IMG/VR virus record: IMGVR_UViG_3300035698_009545
Span: 1 to 26,705 of that record
Source: a virus
Reading direction: 5' to 3' (one strand)
Length of the DNA stretch: 26,705 nt
Part shown: piece after piece, positions 1,266 to 26,538 of the stretch
How positions within the stretch are numbered: position 1 is the first letter of the stretch
Layout of the letters: the number at the start of each line of letters is the position of its first letter
The notes under the pieces: model-generated
What the model was told of the DNA's origin: nothing
What the model saw: only the letters and a program-made list of their open reading frames with translations
Database searches by the model: none
Position numbers and translations under genes: made by a program

Positions 1266-4200
1266 CTACCTGGCTTTCTTATCGTCTCTCTTAATCCTAC
1301 CTTGCTCTAGTAACCAAGAGATGTAGTTCCTCATGTCACCAGTGGTTTTAACTCTACCTAGTCTTCGGTTAGCTGCGATCTTCTTTGCAGTCACTAGACT
1401 CTTTGGTACTGCCCTGGTCGCTGGGCCGGTAAAGACCTTCTTGGCTAAATCGGCACCAAAGTGATGGGCAAAATAAACAGTCTCAATAGTTATAGGAGCA
1501 CCAGCGTTTCTCATCACTCGGATGTTACTCTTAGTGTTGATCTTCATTGCGATCTGTTGCTGCTTACCGTCCTTTTTGTATAACCCATCAAGTGTTAGTC
1601 CTGCTCTGATACCTTCAGGAGATTCCACTAAACCCTTCCAAGTTTTAGGTACGAATTGGTAGATACCAAACGCATCGCTTCCACTAGGACTAGCGTTCCA
1701 CACGTCGTTGCTCTCAGTGAACTTGATTAGCTCGTAATCATCATTGCCGATATCGTTTATGTCGGCTTCACCTATGAGTAGGTTTCTGAGCTTTTTCAAC
1801 TCTTCCACGAAGCCTTGCATAGGTGAAGGTTTGGCTTCTTTACCTGCAGATATGTCTTTTAGTCGCTGTCTCTTCTGCGCTACAGTTAAAGGCTTCTCAT
1901 GTTTGTCTATGAAACCAGTTAAGGTTCCTATCACTTTTCCAACTGCATCCCCGGTTTTAAATATCAAAGCGTCTGGATCTTTATCGTGTTTGCGTCTGAG
2001 CTGGAGTATTGAACTTGCAGGGCCAAACCCTGTACCCATGGCGAACATTGTGATAAATGCTCTAAGCTCCTTATCGCTCAGGTTATCTTGCAGATCCATG
2101 AACGACATTCCAGCATAGAGCTCTGTGACGGCGTAGGGTAGCGCATTGAGGACTGTGAGGCCAGTATCTGCCAGAACAAGAGGGGCTATGGTCAGTGGCC
2201 TTCCAGTCTCGTAGGCAAACATCATATCTCTAAGTCCCACCATGGTGCCGATATAGTTGGCAGCCACAAGCTCCCTCCAACCCTCAGGGGTTGTCACTGT
2301 ATTTACAGCCCACCTCGGGAGATTACCCAGGTTCTCTGCCATTGTAGACTCACCCTCGTTATCTCGAGGTTCATCTTCTTCAGGGGTGGGGTCTCGCCCT
2401 CGCATGGCATTTAATATGGCCAAACTCATCATCGCCGGTATCATCACATTGGCTGTAACACCAAGGTTCTTAAACACAGCTCTCTGTACTGCATCGGGGT
2501 CACCGTTTCTATAGGCTTCAGCAGCTTCTTTGGAATTACCCATGATAGTTCTAGCGTCGGCTGCTCTTGCTAGACCAACGTTACGAGACTCGTTCCAAAA
2601 CATGGTGATGATGTTGACAAAAGGTATAGTTTGAATCGGGGCTTTACTTAAATCATCAGCCCTCATTGTGGATTGGGCACTTATCTGTTCAGCGTAGGAC
2701 ATAGCGTTCTCATGTAGCTCGTCCATGGATTGATCCAACTGGTAGTTCTCACGGATACTGGTCACATTGCCGGTCACGTACTGATCATAGGCGGCAAGAA
2801 AGGTGATAGTCTTCAACGCCTTGTCTATGTTACCCAGCACTCCAGTAAGAAAGAGAGTGTTGGCTGCATCTGATGCTCTTCTAGTTTTGTCCCACGCACC
2901 TTTTAGGTGGCGTGGGGCAGCGTTACTTCTCGCATTGAGTGACGCTATCGATGTAGATTTGTGCTCGTCAAGTCCAAGTCGTAAGGCATTTAAACTTGGG
3001 TCTCCGACACGAACTCGATCCATGAGCATCTGTGTTCGCCCACTCTTCCAATGCACTGGATTGAGAATATCGAAAGCAACCCTACTCATAAAGTATGTAC
3101 CATTGGCTACCCCCATTCTAGATAAAACTGCGGGTGCAGTCAGGAGAGTTGCCAATACAGAATTAACATTACCCACAATAGAGGTGATTGTTATGACAGT
3201 TCTTGATGCCGCGATACCCTTCTTCACAGTGTCACTTAATGTTTTATGAACCCCCATGTTCGAAGCCATTATAGAGTTCGTCTGGCCCATGACCATATTA
3301 GTCAGCGTGTTGTACCCATGTGGTCCAACAACATTTGAAATAGAGTTCTGCATTGTAGGGTTTGTAAGTAAAACCAATGTGTCTCTGACAGGGATTCTCA
3401 TTGTCACATCGTGAACTATCTCTTCAATACTCATTTCAAAGTTGGCCCAATTCAAATCCAATTGGTCCCCATTACCAGTTCGATCCTTGGTGTAGTTACT
3501 CTGCACTATGCCGTCGTAGGCTTCAGACTTTCTAACGGACTTGGTGTTTTGCACATCCACTAGCGCCTCTACGTCCTGGGCGTCCCTAACGTGAGCGTCG
3601 ATGTCAAAACGCTTCTTGTACTTCAACCTGTAGTGACCACCCCTATATGTCGTACCAAAAGCCACGAATGATTTAGCTACAGTATAGTTTAATTTATCTT
3701 CGCCTATATCTCCCCTATTCGTAGTCTTCTTTTCAATTGCACTAATCTTAGGTTTGAGCTCTTCAAAGGCACCCCATACGCCTTCTTGTACTAGGTCGAA
3801 CTCCTTCTGAGTAAGCTCTCTCTCAAGGACTTTCATTACAACATCTCTGCTTATTCCAAAATTCTCAACAGCACTGATGTTGTCTTCGTTACCCATGTTG
3901 GCCAATATAGAGAATAGATCGAGTTTTGTTAGCTTGCCTTTATTTAAACCCTTGGCTCTTCTAAACTCTACGATGTCCACCGACTTCGTACCTAAGTTCT
4001 TAAACTCCAGTACGGTCAAAGTGCTACCATAGGCTTTAACGTGATCTTTCCATCTATTGTACATCACACCTTGTAGTTCAACTTTAGCTGAATAGCCGTA
4101 CCCATTGTTCGCATACTTACCGATGCCCATTAATTTGTTATAAATAACCTCATTAAAGAACCCATTGAATTTCTGCTCATCCAATCTGAAAGCTATGAAC

Positions 4201-22230: not shown

Positions 22231-22338
22231 GTGGGGTTAAAAGCGTAGTAATTACGTGTCCATATGTGTTTATAGGAGTTGTGTGCGCACCCCCGCGAAT
22301 TTATAACAGTCACCAATAGATGAATGAACGACTAAGGA

Positions 22339-22410
22339 GGCGCTACAAGGACTCGAACCCCGATGAGCAGTCTCTCCGACCACACGCCTTACCCGTTAGA
22401 CGATAGCGCC
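22339..22410 (-). tRNA. tRNA-like gene, anticodon not assignable
   Basis: A 72-nt minus-strand element folds as a tRNA. The acceptor GGCGCTA pairs with TAGCGCC (7 bp). The D-arm is GTCT/AGGC with loop AACGGGTA, containing the usual A14 and G18G19. The T-arm is CGGGG/CCTTG with loop TTCGAGT. The anticodon arm is abnormal. The only good stem, GTGGT/ACTGC, gives a loop CGGAGAG with G at position 33 instead of the near-universal U. The alternative register (TCGGAGA) has no stem. CCA is not encoded. It is either a degenerate tRNA or a tRNA-shaped RNA with another use. Confidence 0.7.
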
Positions 22411-22875: not shown

Positions 22876-22881
22876 GTTATA
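22867..22881. repeat. AGGGCAAGT-N-TTATA element, second copy
   Basis: A 15-mer AGGGCAAGTGTTATA matches AGGGCAAGTTTTATA at 22207-22221 in 14 of 15 positions. Both copies lie within candidate minus-strand promoters, one in a spacer and one over a -35 box. This suggests a regulator of late transcription. Confidence 0.45.
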
Positions 22882-22891
22882 TTTCTTAGCT

Positions 22892-22956
22892 AAAAGATAT
22901 AGCGAAAAATACGAACACAATATTTTACAGTAAAAAGATATAGCGAAAAATACGAA
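22892..22956. repeat. Pair of 24-bp direct repeats, 41 bp apart
   Basis: A 24-base sequence starting AAAAGATATAGCGAAAAATA and ending CGAA is present, identical, at 22892-22915 and 22933-22956. The start-to-start distance of 41 bp is close to four helical turns, so proteins bound to both would face the same side. The tract is A-rich and lies at the centre of the divergent region. It could be an operator, an activator array or an origin iteron pair. Confidence 0.7.
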
Positions 22957-23236: not shown

Positions 23237-23265
23237 TTGACCATGCTTATAGGTTAGGCTATTTA
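23237..23265 (+). promoter_or_regulatory. Candidate early promoter before the first plus-strand gene
   Basis: TTGACC (23237-23242), a 17-base spacer and TATTTA (23260-23265) fit a sigma70 promoter, in a run of GTTATATAACTT motifs (23228-23239, and again from about 23279). The predicted start is near 23272, about 60 bases before ATG 23334. Confidence 0.55.
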
Positions 23266-23317
23266 TAACTCAATCAGGTTATATAACTTATATAACTTTA
23301 TGAGATTATGAATCGCC

Positions 23318-23333
23318 AACAAAGGACCAAATC
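23318..23333 (+). promoter_or_regulatory. Conserved early-gene leader with Shine-Dalgarno (first of a family)
   Basis: AACAAAGGACCAAATC precedes ATG 23334. Close copies precede ATG 23648 (23630-23647), ATG 24772 (24756-24771, identical 16-mer), ATG 25131 (25112-25130), ATG 25537 (25519-25536), ATG 26167 (26134-26166, doubled) and ATG 26296 (26283-26295). A weaker version precedes 24613. AAAGGA is the ribosome site, but conservation extends over the flanking AAC and CCAAA, more than the ribosome needs. This suggests a shared regulator, or duplication of gene cassettes. Confidence 0.75.
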
Positions 23334-23570
23334 ATGCTTACACGCAGTGCAGTAAAAGATAAAATAGAGATAATTAATATCAGAATAAGACGTTTAGAAA
23401 TTGAGACAGTGATGAAAGGAATTGATAATACTTCCAGCATTGCCTCACTTAACGCAAATGCATTTAAACTACTGCAATGGCTAGATTCAGAGCAATCTAG
23501 TTATCTCTCAAAATGTTCATTTAACTTTGAGAACCTCTTTCAGAGCTTAGAAAACAGTTACCAACACTGA
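23334..23570 (+). CDS. Hypothetical early protein, helical
   Basis: A 78-residue protein of unknown function, the first gene of the plus-strand block. Residues 6-28 (AVKDKIEIINIRIRRLEIET) form a charged amphipathic helix that could be a coiled coil. A helical Ser-rich second half follows. No membrane segment or catalytic motif is seen. ATG 23334 lies seven bases after AAAGGA in the recurring leader. By position behind a host-type promoter it would be expressed at once on infection, when host-takeover proteins are usually made; that role is inference. Confidence 0.65.
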   Translation: MLTRSAVKDKIEIINIRIRRLEIETVMKGIDNTSSIASLNANAFKLLQWLDSEQSSYLSKCSFNFENLFQSLENSYQH

Positions 23571-23589
23571 TAGTGGCTGAATGCTTTTT

Positions 23590-23616
23590 AGGTCCTTAGA
23601 TTCAATCCTAAGGCCT
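23590..23616 (+). other. Intergenic hairpin of the leader cassette, copy 1
   Basis: CCTTAG and CTAAGG pair across loop ATTCAATC, extended by AGG/CCT with a one-base bulge. Flanks GCTTTTTAGG and TAAAACCATT are shared with the hairpin at 24555-24582. No U-tract follows, so it is not a standard terminator. mRNA processing or stability are possible roles. Confidence 0.6.
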
Positions 23617-23647
23617 TATAAAACCATTTAACAAAGGATCAAACACA

Positions 23648-23752
23648 ATGAATCAGTTAACAACAATCACAGGCCATGTAATTTCTTACATAATCTTAAT
23701 TTCTCTCCTAATTAACCTATTATTTCAAATAAGACTCATTTCGCTCTTTTAA
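23648..23752 (+). CDS. 34-residue single-pass membrane peptide
   Basis: A short reading frame, MNQLTTITGHVISYIILISL..., starts nine bases after AAAGGA in the recurring leader (AACAAAGGATCAAACACA). Residues 11-28 are strongly hydrophobic, one transmembrane helix, and a single Arg follows near the C-terminus. The presence of the full leader argues that it is translated. Small phage membrane peptides can inhibit host functions or aid lysis; nothing here decides between these. Confidence 0.55.
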   Translation: MNQLTTITGHVISYIILISLLINLLFQIRLISLF

Positions 23753-23827
23753 AAGTCAATTCTATAACACCAAGGAAGGTGTTTACCTTAGTAATTCTAT
23801 ACTCTTAACGCATCCAAACTACTCCAT

Positions 23828-23856
23828 TTGACTTTCTTTAAAACGTCCTATATACT
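23828..23856 (+). promoter_or_regulatory. Strong sigma70-type promoter ahead of a long hairpin
   Basis: TTGACT (23828-23833), exactly 17 bases, and TATACT (23851-23856) are each 5/6 to consensus. The predicted start is about 23863, six bases before the hairpin at 23869-23952 and about 380 bases before the next gene. Confidence 0.7.
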
Positions 23857-23868
23857 AACTTTATACAG

Positions 23869-23952
23869 AAGCCCAAAGGGGCTTAGAGAGAGTCAAAAAA
23901 GGGTAAATCTATAGATTTATTTTTGACTCTCTCTAAGCCTCTAAGGGCCCTT
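23869..23952 (+). ncRNA. Long RNA hairpin, possible small RNA or RNase III site
   Basis: Bases 23877-23899 pair with 23920-23942 (23 bp, one G-T; the core 23880-23899 is perfect). The apical part 23904-23919 is itself a 16-base palindrome. A competing small hairpin, AAGCCC with GGGCTT (23869-23884), and the palindrome AAGGGCCCTT (23943-23952) flank it. There is no terminal U-tract, so it is not a standard terminator. It could be the body of a small RNA, an RNase III processing site as in T7 early mRNA, or a DNA cruciform. Confidence 0.55.
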
Positions 23953-24246
23953 CCCAGTAAAGTTATTACCCAAATCAATCCTGTTCGACTTCATCTCAAA
24001 ACTAAGCACCATAGACCGTTTTTAGAGACAAATCAATCAATCCTCCCCTAATCAAGCACACCCCAGTCCATAATCTCTATTCGATCTGTATAATATTTCA
24101 GTCCATTTGACGCACTGCTAGTCCATGCCCAAATAATAATCAATCAACCTATTGACTGTACCTATTTGGTTTTATAGAAACCTTAATCAAGTTATAAATA
24201 TATATAACAATTAATGATATAACTATAAATTAAAGGAATGTGATCA
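23953..24246. other. Gene-free AT-rich stretch before the 99-residue protein gene
   Basis: No gene is seen here. It holds three AGTCCAT copies (24065, 24100 and 24119), a perfect TATAAT (24089-24094) without a matching -35, a weak TTGACT-N15-TATAGA promoter (24152-24178), and AT-rich palindromic runs around 24190-24225. Just before the next gene, AAAGGA is followed by ATG-TGA, a start-stop pair at 24238-24243. Confidence 0.5.
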
Positions 24247-24546
24247 ATGGATACAATCAAAGACGTACTGTGCGAAGACATGCCTACGATAATCGAATCA
24301 AGGGACGAAGCTCATTATGACCAAATCAGTACAGCAGTGCTTGAGACTTCAAAAGGTGACATTAAAATACAGGACGTTAAGTACAAAGGTGTAAAGACTA
24401 AATGGTATGTATTTTTCAAGACAGGTGAGTTGATTGAATCGGTAAACTCAAAAGCTGTCCAGTTTGACCTAATAGACACCAAGCTTAATATCATCATAGA
24501 ACGTGTCGACGCTCTATGCGCTCAAATTGGTATACCAAACGAGTAA
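24247..24546 (+). CDS. Hypothetical early protein
   Basis: A 99-residue acidic protein with no recognised domain. It looks mixed alpha/beta: an N-terminal helix (DVLCEDMPTIIES), a central strand pair (GDIKIQDVKYKGVKTKWYVFF) and a C-terminal helix (KLNIIIERVDALCAQIG). Two Cys lie far apart and there is no membrane segment. ATG 24247 is nine bases after AAAGGA. Unlike the neighbours it lacks the CCAAA part of the common leader, and it has its own long upstream region. Confidence 0.65.
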   Translation: MDTIKDVLCEDMPTIIESRDEAHYDQISTAVLETSKGDIKIQDVKYKGVKTKWYVFFKTGELIESVNSKAVQFDLIDTKLNIIIERVDALCAQIGIPNE

Positions 24547-24554
24547 TGCTTTTT

Positions 24555-24582
24555 AGGCTCTTAGAGGCGATTCTAAGGGCTT
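24555..24582 (+). other. Intergenic hairpin of the leader cassette, copy 2
   Basis: AGGCTCTTAGA pairs with TCTAAGGGCTT over 11 bp (two G-T pairs) across loop GGCGAT. Flanks match copy 1 (GCTTTTTAGG and TAAAACCATT), while loop and several stem positions differ, so the fold seems to be what is kept. Confidence 0.65.
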
Positions 24583-24609
24583 GTAAAACCATTAAACATA
24601 GGTTGAGCA

Positions 24610-25062
24610 GTGATGACTCTATTTAATTTCTACATGATTGCCTATCGACTTGATGAGGCTTTGATTTGGTTCACCAACTTAAATCAATCAGAGCTTTTAA
24701 TCTCACTGCTAGGACTTCTTGTTTTCATCTATTTAATTGTTATTAACCACACATTAACAAAGGACCAAATCATGATAGACCACGTAACAGAGGCAGACTT
24801 CATAACAAGATTTAAAGAGTCTGGACGTCCAGACAATTTCAGTCGTGAAGGACTAAAAGCGTTATTTGAATACTTAGAGTCTTATGAAGAAGACTGCGAT
24901 ACTCAAATTGAGTTGGATGTTATAGCAATATGCTGTGAGTACACTGAGGATACCATAGAGAGTGTTTTAGAAAACTATGAGCTTAAAGACATTGACGACT
25001 TACGAGACCACACACAGGTCATTGAGGTTGATTCAGATACAATTATTTACCAAAACTATTGA
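24610..25062 (+). CDS. Phage early protein with optional membrane anchor (nested start at 24772)
   Basis: The long frame (GTG 24610 or ATG 24613, about 150 residues) has one transmembrane helix at 29-45 (LLISLLGLLVFIYLIVI). A soluble part follows: DFITRFKESGRPDNFSREGL, LFEYLESYEED and ELDVIAICCEYTEDTIES. This belongs to a recognisable but uncharacterised family of small phage and plasmid proteins. At residue 55 an ATG (24772) follows an exact copy of the early leader, which is read as TKDQI in the long form. So the usual family protein is probably the 96-residue form from 24772. The upstream half is either a separate membrane peptide lacking its own stop or an anchor. Function is unknown. Confidence 0.72.
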   Translation: MMTLFNFYMIAYRLDEALIWFTNLNQSELLISLLGLLVFIYLIVINHTLTKDQIMIDHVTEADFITRFKESGRPDNFSREGLKALFEYLESYEEDCDTQIELDVIAICCEYTEDTIESVLENYELKDIDDLRDHTQVIEVDSDTIIYQNY

Positions 25063-25074
25063 TTCTTTTCAGTT

Positions 25075-25096
25075 CCTAACTAAATAACTAGTTGGG
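25075..25096 (+). other. Intergenic hairpin of the leader cassette, copy 3
   Basis: CCTAACTA pairs with TAGTTGGG (8 bp, one G-T) across AATAAC, with an outer CAG/CTG. The sequence differs from the other two hairpins but occupies the same place, just before TGTAAACAATTAAACAAAGGA. Confidence 0.5.
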
Positions 25097-25130
25097 TTCT
25101 GTAAACAATTAAACAAAGGACCAAAGACAA

Positions 25131-25436
25131 ATGAATAAAATAATAGAAATGTGTAGGACTGATTATAATTTCATGGTTGGCACCATCAAAGACATTAAAA
25201 CTCAACTAGACAGTGAGATAACAGAGATAGACGTTAGACTCTGCATTGATGTTGACTCCTATGGTGAACCAGACTGGATAATTAGACAAGGTGATGCAAG
25301 CTTTGATCAAGTTCATTCGCAATATTGTGGGAGTGACACTATTACAAGTGAGACTGTAGTTAACAAGTTGGCCGATCCAACAATTGAGAATTTAATCGAT
25401 CAAGTTTTAGATCAATGTGCCTCTAATGACCACTAG
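25131..25436 (+). CDS. Hypothetical early protein
   Basis: A 101-residue acidic soluble protein. After an N-terminal helix (IIEMCRTDYNFMVGTIKDI) comes 'IDVRLCIDVDSYGEPDWIIRQGDASFDQVHSQYCG', then a C-terminal helix ending LADPTIENLIDQVLDQ. The 'RL.I...G.....GD.S.D..H..Y.G' core resembles small proteins common in phages and plasmids, generally of unknown function. ATG 25131 has the full leader (AAAGGA ten bases upstream). It sits among other such mobile-element early genes. Function is not known. Confidence 0.65.
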   Translation: MNKIIEMCRTDYNFMVGTIKDIKTQLDSEITEIDVRLCIDVDSYGEPDWIIRQGDASFDQVHSQYCGSDTITSETVVNKLADPTIENLIDQVLDQCASNDH

Positions 25437-25446
25437 TGACGCAGAA

Positions 25447-25509
25447 ATGCTAACAGCTTTACTTATTATAACAATATTGGTCATTCTAGGATGCTCATAT
25501 ACTTTTTAA
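25447..25509 (+). CDS. Possible 20-residue hydrophobic peptide with lipobox-like end
   Basis: ATG 25447 opens a 20-codon frame, MLTALLIITILVILGCSYTF, almost wholly hydrophobic and with a lipobox-like ILGC at 13-16. It lies in the 100-base gap between two genes. No convincing ribosome site is seen and the positive charge expected of a signal peptide is absent, so this is a tentative call. It recalls the hydrophobic segments preceding leaders at 23648 and 24610. Confidence 0.3.
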   Translation: MLTALLIITILVILGCSYTF

Positions 25510-25536
25510 AACCAATTAAACAAAGGACCAAGACAA

Positions 25537-25758
25537 ATGAGACAAGAAACAATAATAGTAAAATACTACCCATTCAATGAGTTATCAGATATTGCAAAAG
25601 GTAAGGCCTTAGAAAAGCTATGGGACATTAATTTAGAGCATGACTGGTGGAATTCAGTCTATGAAGATGCAAAGAACATAGGTTGCAAGATAACCGAATT
25701 CGATATCAATAGGGCTAGCTGCTGTAAAATTGACTTTAGTGAAAACCATTTAAATTGA
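25537..25758 (+). CDS. N-terminal half of a frameshifted phage family protein
   Basis: A 73-residue frame that starts nine bases after AAAGGA in the leader. It carries 'YYPFNELSDIAKGKALEKLWDI', 'DWWNSVYEDAKNIGCKITEFDINR', the first half of a phage and plasmid family normally near 180 residues. It stops at TGA 25756-25758. The remaining half follows in the +1 frame starting at 25757 with no gap. Joined, they give 73 + 106 = 179 residues, a normal family length. So this is a recent frameshift, a sequencing error, or programmed +1 shifting. The family is sometimes labelled antitoxin-like; its function is not established. Confidence 0.7.
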   Translation: MRQETIIVKYYPFNELSDIAKGKALEKLWDINLEHDWWNSVYEDAKNIGCKITEFDINRASCCKIDFSENHLN

Positions 25759-26077
25759 TGTTGCTAGAAATATTCAAAAACACCATGGTCCTGAATGTGA
25801 AACAACTAAACTAGCACTAAGTTACATTACTAAGCATAAACCGATACAACTTGAAATAGACAAAGAAGACTGCCCTAGTGGTGAGTATGACTTTGATTTG
25901 GTTGACCAAGCTGAAGATCAGCTAATGGACCTTAACAGAGACTTTATTGATTCATTGCAAAATGAATACCTATCAATGCTTAGAAGTGAGTATGAATACT
26001 TAAGTAGTGAAGAAGCTGTTATTGAGACAATAGAAGCCAATGACTATGAATTTAATGAGCTAGGAATACTAATTTAA
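25757..26077 (+). pseudogene. C-terminal half of the frameshifted family protein, +1 frame
   Basis: An open frame of 106 codons with no start codon near its beginning continues the previous protein: DVARNIQKHHGPECETTKLA, an acidic linker, then LRSEYEYLSSEEAVIETIEA and NDYEFNELG. These are the expected C-terminal signatures of the same family. It has no internal stops, which argues that the frameshift is recent or functional. An internal ATG at 25925 could give at most a 50-residue peptide. Upstream in this frame is a TAA at 25751-25753, so any shift must occur between 25754 and 25757. Its stop TAA shares a base with ATG 26077. Confidence 0.65.
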
Positions 26078-26104
26078 TGACTTCACTCTCACTGTCTTTT
26101 TTAG

Positions 26105-26147
26105 TTGGTCCTTTTGGGGCAGTGGGTTTTTTTAATCAAAGGACTAA
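26105..26147 (+). promoter_or_regulatory. Hairpin that can cover the first leader ribosome site
   Basis: TTGGTCCTTT (26105-26114) pairs with AAAGGACTAA (26138-26147) over 10 bp (one G-T), hiding the AAAGGA of the first leader copy. A second site, AAAGGG at 26152-26157, stays free. This could tune translation of the gene at 26167. Confidence 0.4.
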
Positions 26148-26166
26148 ACGTAAAGGGACCATATTA

Positions 26167-26538
26167 ATGTCAAAACTAAAAGCATTTTACACCGACGACA
26201 ACGGGGATATATCAGAGGTTAAGACTATCTTCCCCGACTTATTATTTAAACTCAATTTTGAGGTACAAAAAAACATCAATCGAAAGAAGGACCAAATGGA
26301 CTCCAAAGACAAAACAATTGTAATGCTAAAAAGATGCCTAACACACTTGGAGCAACATCAATGCGCTGAGTGGGTAGTCATAGACGACATAGAGGGCTGT
26401 CTAGGCTGTGATGAGTGCAATGGTTGCGACGACCATGACCAAATAGAGGCCAGTGACGAGACTATATATGACGACAATAAAGAGAGTCTAAAGACTGAGC
26501 TTGGTCTACTAATAGACAGATTAGAGGGGAAGCTATGA
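26167..26538 (+). CDS. Hypothetical early protein with CxxCxxCxxC cluster
   Basis: A 123-residue protein beginning MSKLKAFYTDDNGDISEV. The frame is open back to ATG 26077, which touches the previous stop, but ATG 26167 has AAAGGG nine bases upstream in a doubled leader and is preferred. A second leader-like AAAGAAGGACCAA precedes in-frame ATG 26296, which would give an 80-residue form (MDSKDKTIVMLKRCLTHLEQ). Both forms contain CLGCDECNGC followed by DDHD, four Cys at exact three-residue spacing that probably bind a metal (zinc or an iron-sulphur cluster). The rest is acidic and helical. It ends in an ATGA overlap with the next gene. Function is unknown. Confidence 0.68.
   Translation: MSKLKAFYTDDNGDISEVKTIFPDLLFKLNFEVQKNINRKKDQMDSKDKTIVMLKRCLTHLEQHQCAEWVVIDDIEGCLGCDECNGCDDHDQIEASDETIYDDNKESLKTELGLLIDRLEGKL

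Follow-up and report, generated by a model that had tools for sequence, protein, structure and literature searches.

What is the function of the hairpins and near-identical leaders that recur in front of the early genes at the right-hand end of the IMG/VR virus record IMGVR_UViG_3300035698_009545? The window studied here is the entire record (26,705 bases from an uncultured virus of bacteria, linear, and probably a fragment), in which the late genes run leftward on the minus strand and the early genes rightward on the plus strand from position 23334, with the end of the record falling inside the early region. At three early-gene junctions we find a cassette that consists of a hairpin with a two-part stem (H1, H2 and H3) followed by an A-rich ribosome-binding leader. 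The sequence and position of these hairpins are established, as are a pairing that is maintained through compensatory changes and a geometry and placement like those of the annotated RNase III sites of phages T3 and T7. With a probability of roughly 60%, we interpret the cassettes as hairpins processed by RNase III in the manner of T7, each coupled to a standard ribosome-binding leader; the terminase of the phage is epsilon15-like. The phage is new whereas the mechanism is probably old, with cleavage predicted by analogy.

Five copies of the leader AACAAAGGACCAAA with at most one mismatch are present in the window, as opposed to 0.02 expected, and none of 100 shuffled sequences reached the observed count. 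Three of them are exact (23318, 24756, 25112) and two carry one mismatch (23630, 25519). All five lie on the plus strand, 2-5 nucleotides (nt) 5' of an early start codon, while the 18 late-gene starts on the minus strand all lack the leader. The initial annotation had counted at least seven starts with a shared leader; five stand at this stringency, and seven is attained only when the two-mismatch copies at 26135 and 26283 are admitted, the latter of which overlaps its own ATG and leaves just 4 nt between AAGGA and the ATG. AAGGA is the sole part of the leader that is complementary to the anti-Shine-Dalgarno sequence of the 16S rRNA. Since the flanking AACA and CCAAA are conserved without being complementary to it, the leader is more than an AAGGA Shine-Dalgarno (SD) core, in agreement with the earlier statement that its conservation exceeds that of a ribosome site. 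The most plausible reason why the leaders are nearly identical is that selection favours a single efficient initiation region, in addition to which the element has been duplicated (H1/H2). Two copies, at 24756 and 26283, sit in frame within longer open reading frames (ORFs; 24613-25062 and 26167-26538) and may therefore be translated as protein. Both ORFs encode KDQ(I)M at the leader copy and resemble a fusion of a short upstream gene to the next one.

Hairpins with the flanks GCTTTTTAGG and TAAAACCATT had been reported in front of several leaders; the exact flank pair is found at two sites only, 23580-23628 (H1) and 24545-24593 (H2), whereas H3 (25061-25110) is a diverged relative and a fourth leader is stemless. 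H1 and H2 are 83% identical over 58 nt, including part of the leader. Five base pairs of H3 differ from those of H1 on both sides with the pairing kept, and a C.C mismatch is common to all three hairpins. They are 49-51 nt long, contain 17, 22 and 18 base pairs (H1, H2 and H3, respectively) and have z-scores of -2.89, -4.03 and -4.18 relative to shuffled sequences. The distance from the stop codon to the hairpin ranges from -3 to +9 nt, that from the hairpin to the next start codon from 18 to 20 nt, and the leader follows within 0-2 nt. A covariance model of the cassette recovers the three hairpins with E values between 1e-18 and 3e-15, these being the seeds of the model, and additionally reports the hairpin-less fourth leader (25498-25540; E 0.0013), which retains CTTTTT and AAAACCAATT.

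Each of the three short gaps between genes (212 nt in total) holds a hairpin, where 0.35 would be expected (Poisson P ~0.005), and in a gap survey hairpins were present in three of the five gaps of the window versus 0.0 in shuffled sequences. It is these numbers, together with the z-scores (-2.9 to -4.2) and the compensatory changes, that render it highly improbable that the leader is just a strong ribosome site flanked by A-rich sequence and that the hairpins are chance structures or remnants, even though a leader of the sequence TTAAACAAAGGACCAAA also occurs in unrelated marine phages devoid of such hairpins and long stem-loops are common by chance. An intrinsic terminator was considered as well and rejected because none of the three stems is directly followed by a U-tract; their 3' flanks read UAACAAAGG, AAACAUAGG and AAACAAAGG.

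The processing of early messages by RNase III is textbook knowledge for phage T7, and the record of phage T3 contains ten annotated RNase III stem-loops. The junction sites of these two phages are mostly 49-51 nt long, start at or near a stop codon and end 19-28 nt before most start codons; their full ranges are -7 to +18 nt for the distance from stop codon to hairpin and 19-49 nt for that from hairpin to start codon. H1-H3 share with the T7/T3 sites (R sites) their lengths, the two-part stem, the placement at gene junctions and the fact that they form a repeated family within one genome. In both groups an outer stem is succeeded by a 1x1 mismatch and/or an asymmetric internal loop and then by an inner stem. 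Sites of the T7/T3 type are imperfect hairpins of about 15-20 base pairs (bp) in which a mismatch or loop interrupts the stem; H1-H3 agree with this description, have their elements in the same order as T7 R1 and R1.3 and T3 R0.3 and R1, and lie between a stop codon and the next ribosome site. The correspondence extends to individual sites: T7 R1 (4bp-1x1-5bp-2x3-9bp-loop4; 49 nt) compares with H1 (4bp-1x1-4bp-1x3-3bp-1x0-6bp; 49 nt), T7 R1.3 (4-1x1-13) with H2 (5-1x1-4-0x1-13), and T3 R0.3 (4-1x1-5-1x1-1-2x3-8) with H3 (4-1x1-3-1x1-3-2x2-8). For the T7 site R1.1, a 60-nt RNA, an asymmetric internal loop and a primary cut into products of 47 and 13 nt have been documented (PMC6121014).

We propose that the early region of the window is transcribed into one polycistronic message, in which the cassette would serve as the junction element, a two-stem hairpin of 49-51 nt followed by the A-rich leader. 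The RNase III of the host would cut within the internal loop, on its 3' side (U^AAA). In all three hairpins the equivalent predicted position lies 29 nt before the next start codon. In T7 the cuts at all five early sites fall on an identical U, located at the 3' edge of this loop, and the distance from cut to start codon is 27-35 nt at the four sites that have a nearby start. Cleavage would separate the cistrons, giving the upstream message a hairpin at its end and the downstream message a short leader with AAAGGA at its beginning, and each early gene would thereby obtain its own, similar initiation region irrespective of its neighbour.

Several observations weigh against this interpretation. 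At E<=10, a covariance model built from twelve T7/T3 sites fails to detect H1-H3. These three hairpins were aligned by hand on the basis of structure, which biases the alignment in favour of structure, the fold of H1 is rather weak (-12 kcal/mol), and two leaders have no hairpin. Shuffled versions of the early region contain 3-10 long stem-loops each, so that such structures are not rare, and the weight of the hairpin evidence consequently rests on position. The T7/T3 model does find sites of phage K1F that it had not seen, with E values down to 6.5e-05, and the sequence of the T7/T3 R-site family (AAGGUC...GGCCUUUAU) is not found in H1-H3. Hence, the hairpins of the window can be said to work like T7 sites, not to belong to the T7 sequence family; the resemblance is structural, with a common geometry and different sequences. 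The window hairpins also differ from the T7/T3 sites in carrying an attached, repeated leader and in their phage, whose terminase is epsilon15-like.

Two further explanations were considered. Uncut hairpins might insulate and stabilise: by folding away what lies upstream, each would keep the leader open, and it would also shield the message from decay. The hairpins end 0-2 nt before the leader, and in folds spanning -90 to +35 the SD bases are 42-99% unpaired at the leaders of H1, H3 and H0, an additional hairpin in front of the first early gene (-20.1 kcal/mol; 25 bp, 3 1x1 8 0x1 4 3x2 10 loop3; z -4.05 for 23240-23330). At H2, however, the SD-like AGG is unpaired to a mere 20% or so, and insulation leaves the conserved internal mismatch, the two-part stem and the match to T7/T3 unexplained; we deem it possible, yet unlikely. 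Alternatively, the hairpins could be operators at which a phage RNA-binding protein represses or couples the translation of early genes, in the manner in which the MS2 coat protein acts on its hairpin. The C.C mismatch and a U3-4/A3-4 stem are invariant in the three copies whose stems otherwise diverge, which speaks for an operator, but no candidate RNA-binding protein was found, the ribosome site is left free and the loop sequences are not conserved. We judge a role as operators to be very improbable.

The initial annotation likened the units to the promoter early stem-loop (PeSL) cassettes of T4-type phages (Arbiol 2010; Comeau 2014, cited in PMC4503421), which are mobile units that would permit gene shuffling by homologous recombination. 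Both systems have repeated stem-loop units 5' of small early genes, and in the window a 58-nt repeat with 83% identity is found at two junctions, the leader recurs at five, and the early genes of the closest viral contig (L004) are different ones. Unlike the T4 cassette, the unit of the window carries no promoter. No gene shuffling or swap at its borders was observed in a comparison in which no relative shares the cassettes, and the data speak neither for nor against shuffling there. Promoter-like sites occur in the region at the background rate (18 versus 15.4 expected); no sigma-70-like promoter accompanies H1 or H3, and the only such site near a hairpin is a 9/12 match inside the gene that precedes H2. 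The PeSL reading fails because the early promoter is missing, and we hold it to be improbable, whereas the accompanying suggestion that the unit acts in translation fits the data.

A motif scan of the genome and its relatives had been recommended; it yielded the five leader copies in the window and no viral contig that shares the cassette DNA. In the viral contigs, AACAAAGGACCAAATCATG gave no match, the two hairpin flanks gave two matches within an open gene of an unrelated phage, and AAAACCAWTNAACANAGGA gave 22 matches, whose surroundings resemble unrelated coding DNA and in no case include a strong hairpin. A genome scan for the 19-mer produced a single match in a Clostridiales metagenome-assembled genome. 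Among the relatives, the cassette model detected nothing beyond leader-level matches in L087 (best E 0.014). The terminase of L004 is 72% identical to that of the window, but its early genes all differ, the cassette is not shared, and TGTGAGCaatttaGCTCACA stands directly 5' of AACAAAGGATATATAAGATG.

Table 1. Coordinates of the features in and next to the early region of the window (aa, amino acids).
Feature	Position	Strand	Basis and remarks
tRNA-Leu (GAG), borderline	22336-22410	-	29.9 bits vs gathering score 29; divergent region
H0, A+T-rich hairpin in leader region of first early gene	23257-23317	+	directly abuts leader 23318
Leader AACAAAGGACCAAA of early gene 23334-23570	23318-23331	+	exact match
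First early gene, 78 aa	23334-23570	+	ORF list; no PHROG match
H1, 4bp-1x1(C.C)-4bp-1x3-3bp-1x0-6bp; 3' internal loop UAU	23580-23628	+	fold, geometry, T7 analogy; predicted cut after U23619
Leader AACAAAGGATCAAA	23630-23643	+	one mismatch
Gene for 34-aa hydrophobic peptide, 3' of H1	23648-23752	+	translation MNQLTTITGHVISYIILISLLINLLFQIRLISLF
99-aa early gene, different ribosome site, no cassette	24247-24546	+	ORF list, upstream sequence
H2, 5bp-1x1(C.C)-4bp-0x1-13bp; overlaps stop of 24247-24546	24544-24594	+	fold, geometry; predicted cut after U24584
Degenerate leader AAACATAGG	24594-24602	+	sequence; precedes start 24613 (or GTG 24610)
ORF with N-terminal hydrophobic segment, in frame through the 24756 leader into phrog_9974-like gene	24613-25062	+	ORF list, PHROG
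Leader AACAAAGGACCAAA without hairpin, in frame in upstream ORF; start ATG 24772	24756-24769	+	exact match; fold z +0.19
H3, 4bp-1x1(C.C)-3bp-1x1-3bp-2x2-8bp; overlaps stop 25060-25062	25061-25110	+	fold, compensatory changes; predicted cut after U25102
Leader AACAAAGGACCAAA of gene 25131-25436	25112-25125	+	exact match
Early gene, 101 aa	25131-25436	+	downstream of H3 and leader 25112
20-aa hydrophobic ORF (MLTALLIITILVILGCSYTF), stop within CTTTTTAAAACC	25447-25509	+	read from sequence
Hairpin-less cassette copy, CTTTTT joined straight to AAAACCAATTAAACAAAGGACCAAG, before gene 25537	25498-25540	+	model E 0.0013; 0/30 stem positions
Leader AACAAAGGACCAAG	25519-25532	+	one mismatch

The large terminase subunit of the phage (19372-21015) exhibits about 30% identity to those of epsilon15-type podoviruses, and the DNA from the terminase to the end of the record has no match in a collection of 50,697 phage records. 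No match to PF00940 (T7-type RNA polymerase) is found in the window (G000), a 26.7-kb record that is probably a fragment; none was detected either among the contigs tested, all of which may be fragments. An Rfam scan returned a single model above its gathering score, the borderline tRNA of Table 1. The divergent intergenic region additionally contains a tandem 37-nt repeat (22879-22956; 86% identical) with AAAAGATATAGCGAAAAATACGAA, which is iteron- or operator-like.

The early proteins encoded at 25131 and 25537 have no relatives among the viral contigs. A one-base frame change near 25748 divides the gene at 25537-26077, whose two halves read as one protein related to Pseudomonas phage proteins, and an assembly error, a mutation or frameshifting may be the cause. 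Short hydrophobic ORFs resembling membrane peptides (23648-23752, 24613-24771, 25447-25509) alternate with soluble early genes, and two of the three come after the near-identical hairpins H1 and H2. Two other structures lie in the same region. A 29-nt inverted repeat at 23871-23948 (90% complementary; -50 kcal/mol; z -8.4; no U-tract) lies within 495 nt that contain no annotated gene; it forms a long perfect stem and is possibly another RNase III target, and a terminator-like stem-loop followed by seven T (26088-26131) is positioned just 5' of the leader of ORF 26167.

In about 20 marine viral contigs (L047, L050, L051, L058, L078, etc.), the 17-nt leader TTAAACAAAGGACCAAA/G stands right behind a -10 element (GGTATAATACTC), and some of these contigs, which come from unrelated phages, carry this promoter-plus-leader unit at two or more genes. 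This marine leader, TATAATACTCACATAAATTAAACAAAGGACCAAA (L047, L050, L058, etc.), is the same 17-nt leader that precedes start codons in the window, but it follows a -10 promoter element instead of a hairpin, in phages with matches to cyanophages and methylophages. A T5-like identity of this group, indicated by weak matches, was dropped when a longer comparison pointed to their marine affiliation. Psychrobacter phage D'Alembert (L010) harbours two related hairpins with a GCTAAGATAGG core at early junctions (481-557 and 3806-3895), and a TTGACA-type promoter unit is repeated there three times, at 1536, 2919 and 3152.

Hairpins of the same build as H1-H3, but with another sequence, are found 5' of phrog_9974 homologues in several uncultured contigs (L014-L030). 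They are 49 nt long (9bp-1x1-12/13bp), lack a U-tract and lie 30-33 nt before the start codon of the homologue. Their four distinct sequences show strong covariation: L027 differs from the rest in both partners of 6 of the 21 pairs, and all cells remain paired. In this survey there was one clean copy per genome; when full contigs were surveyed, each genome had no more than one or two clean hairpins of such a build, and the repeated family of the window therefore stands out.

We regard the hairpin-plus-leader units as a real feature that is fairly well explained, and as moderately interesting since similar structures recur in other uncultured phages. Tentatively, such units may represent a convergent processing grammar in the early operons of many non-T7 phages, a proposal about which we remain doubtful: each lineage would have its own hairpin sequence with the same two-part stem and spacing, and small early genes would be gained and lost while the cut site and the ribosome site are kept. 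If the architecture known from T7 is indeed present both here, alongside an epsilon15-like terminase, and in other uncultured phages, where covarying hairpins of like build precede a small gene that the phages share, the RNase III device would be widespread and recognisable through structure and spacing instead of sequence, and it would offer a simple, testable reason for the rows of interchangeable small early genes in such phages.

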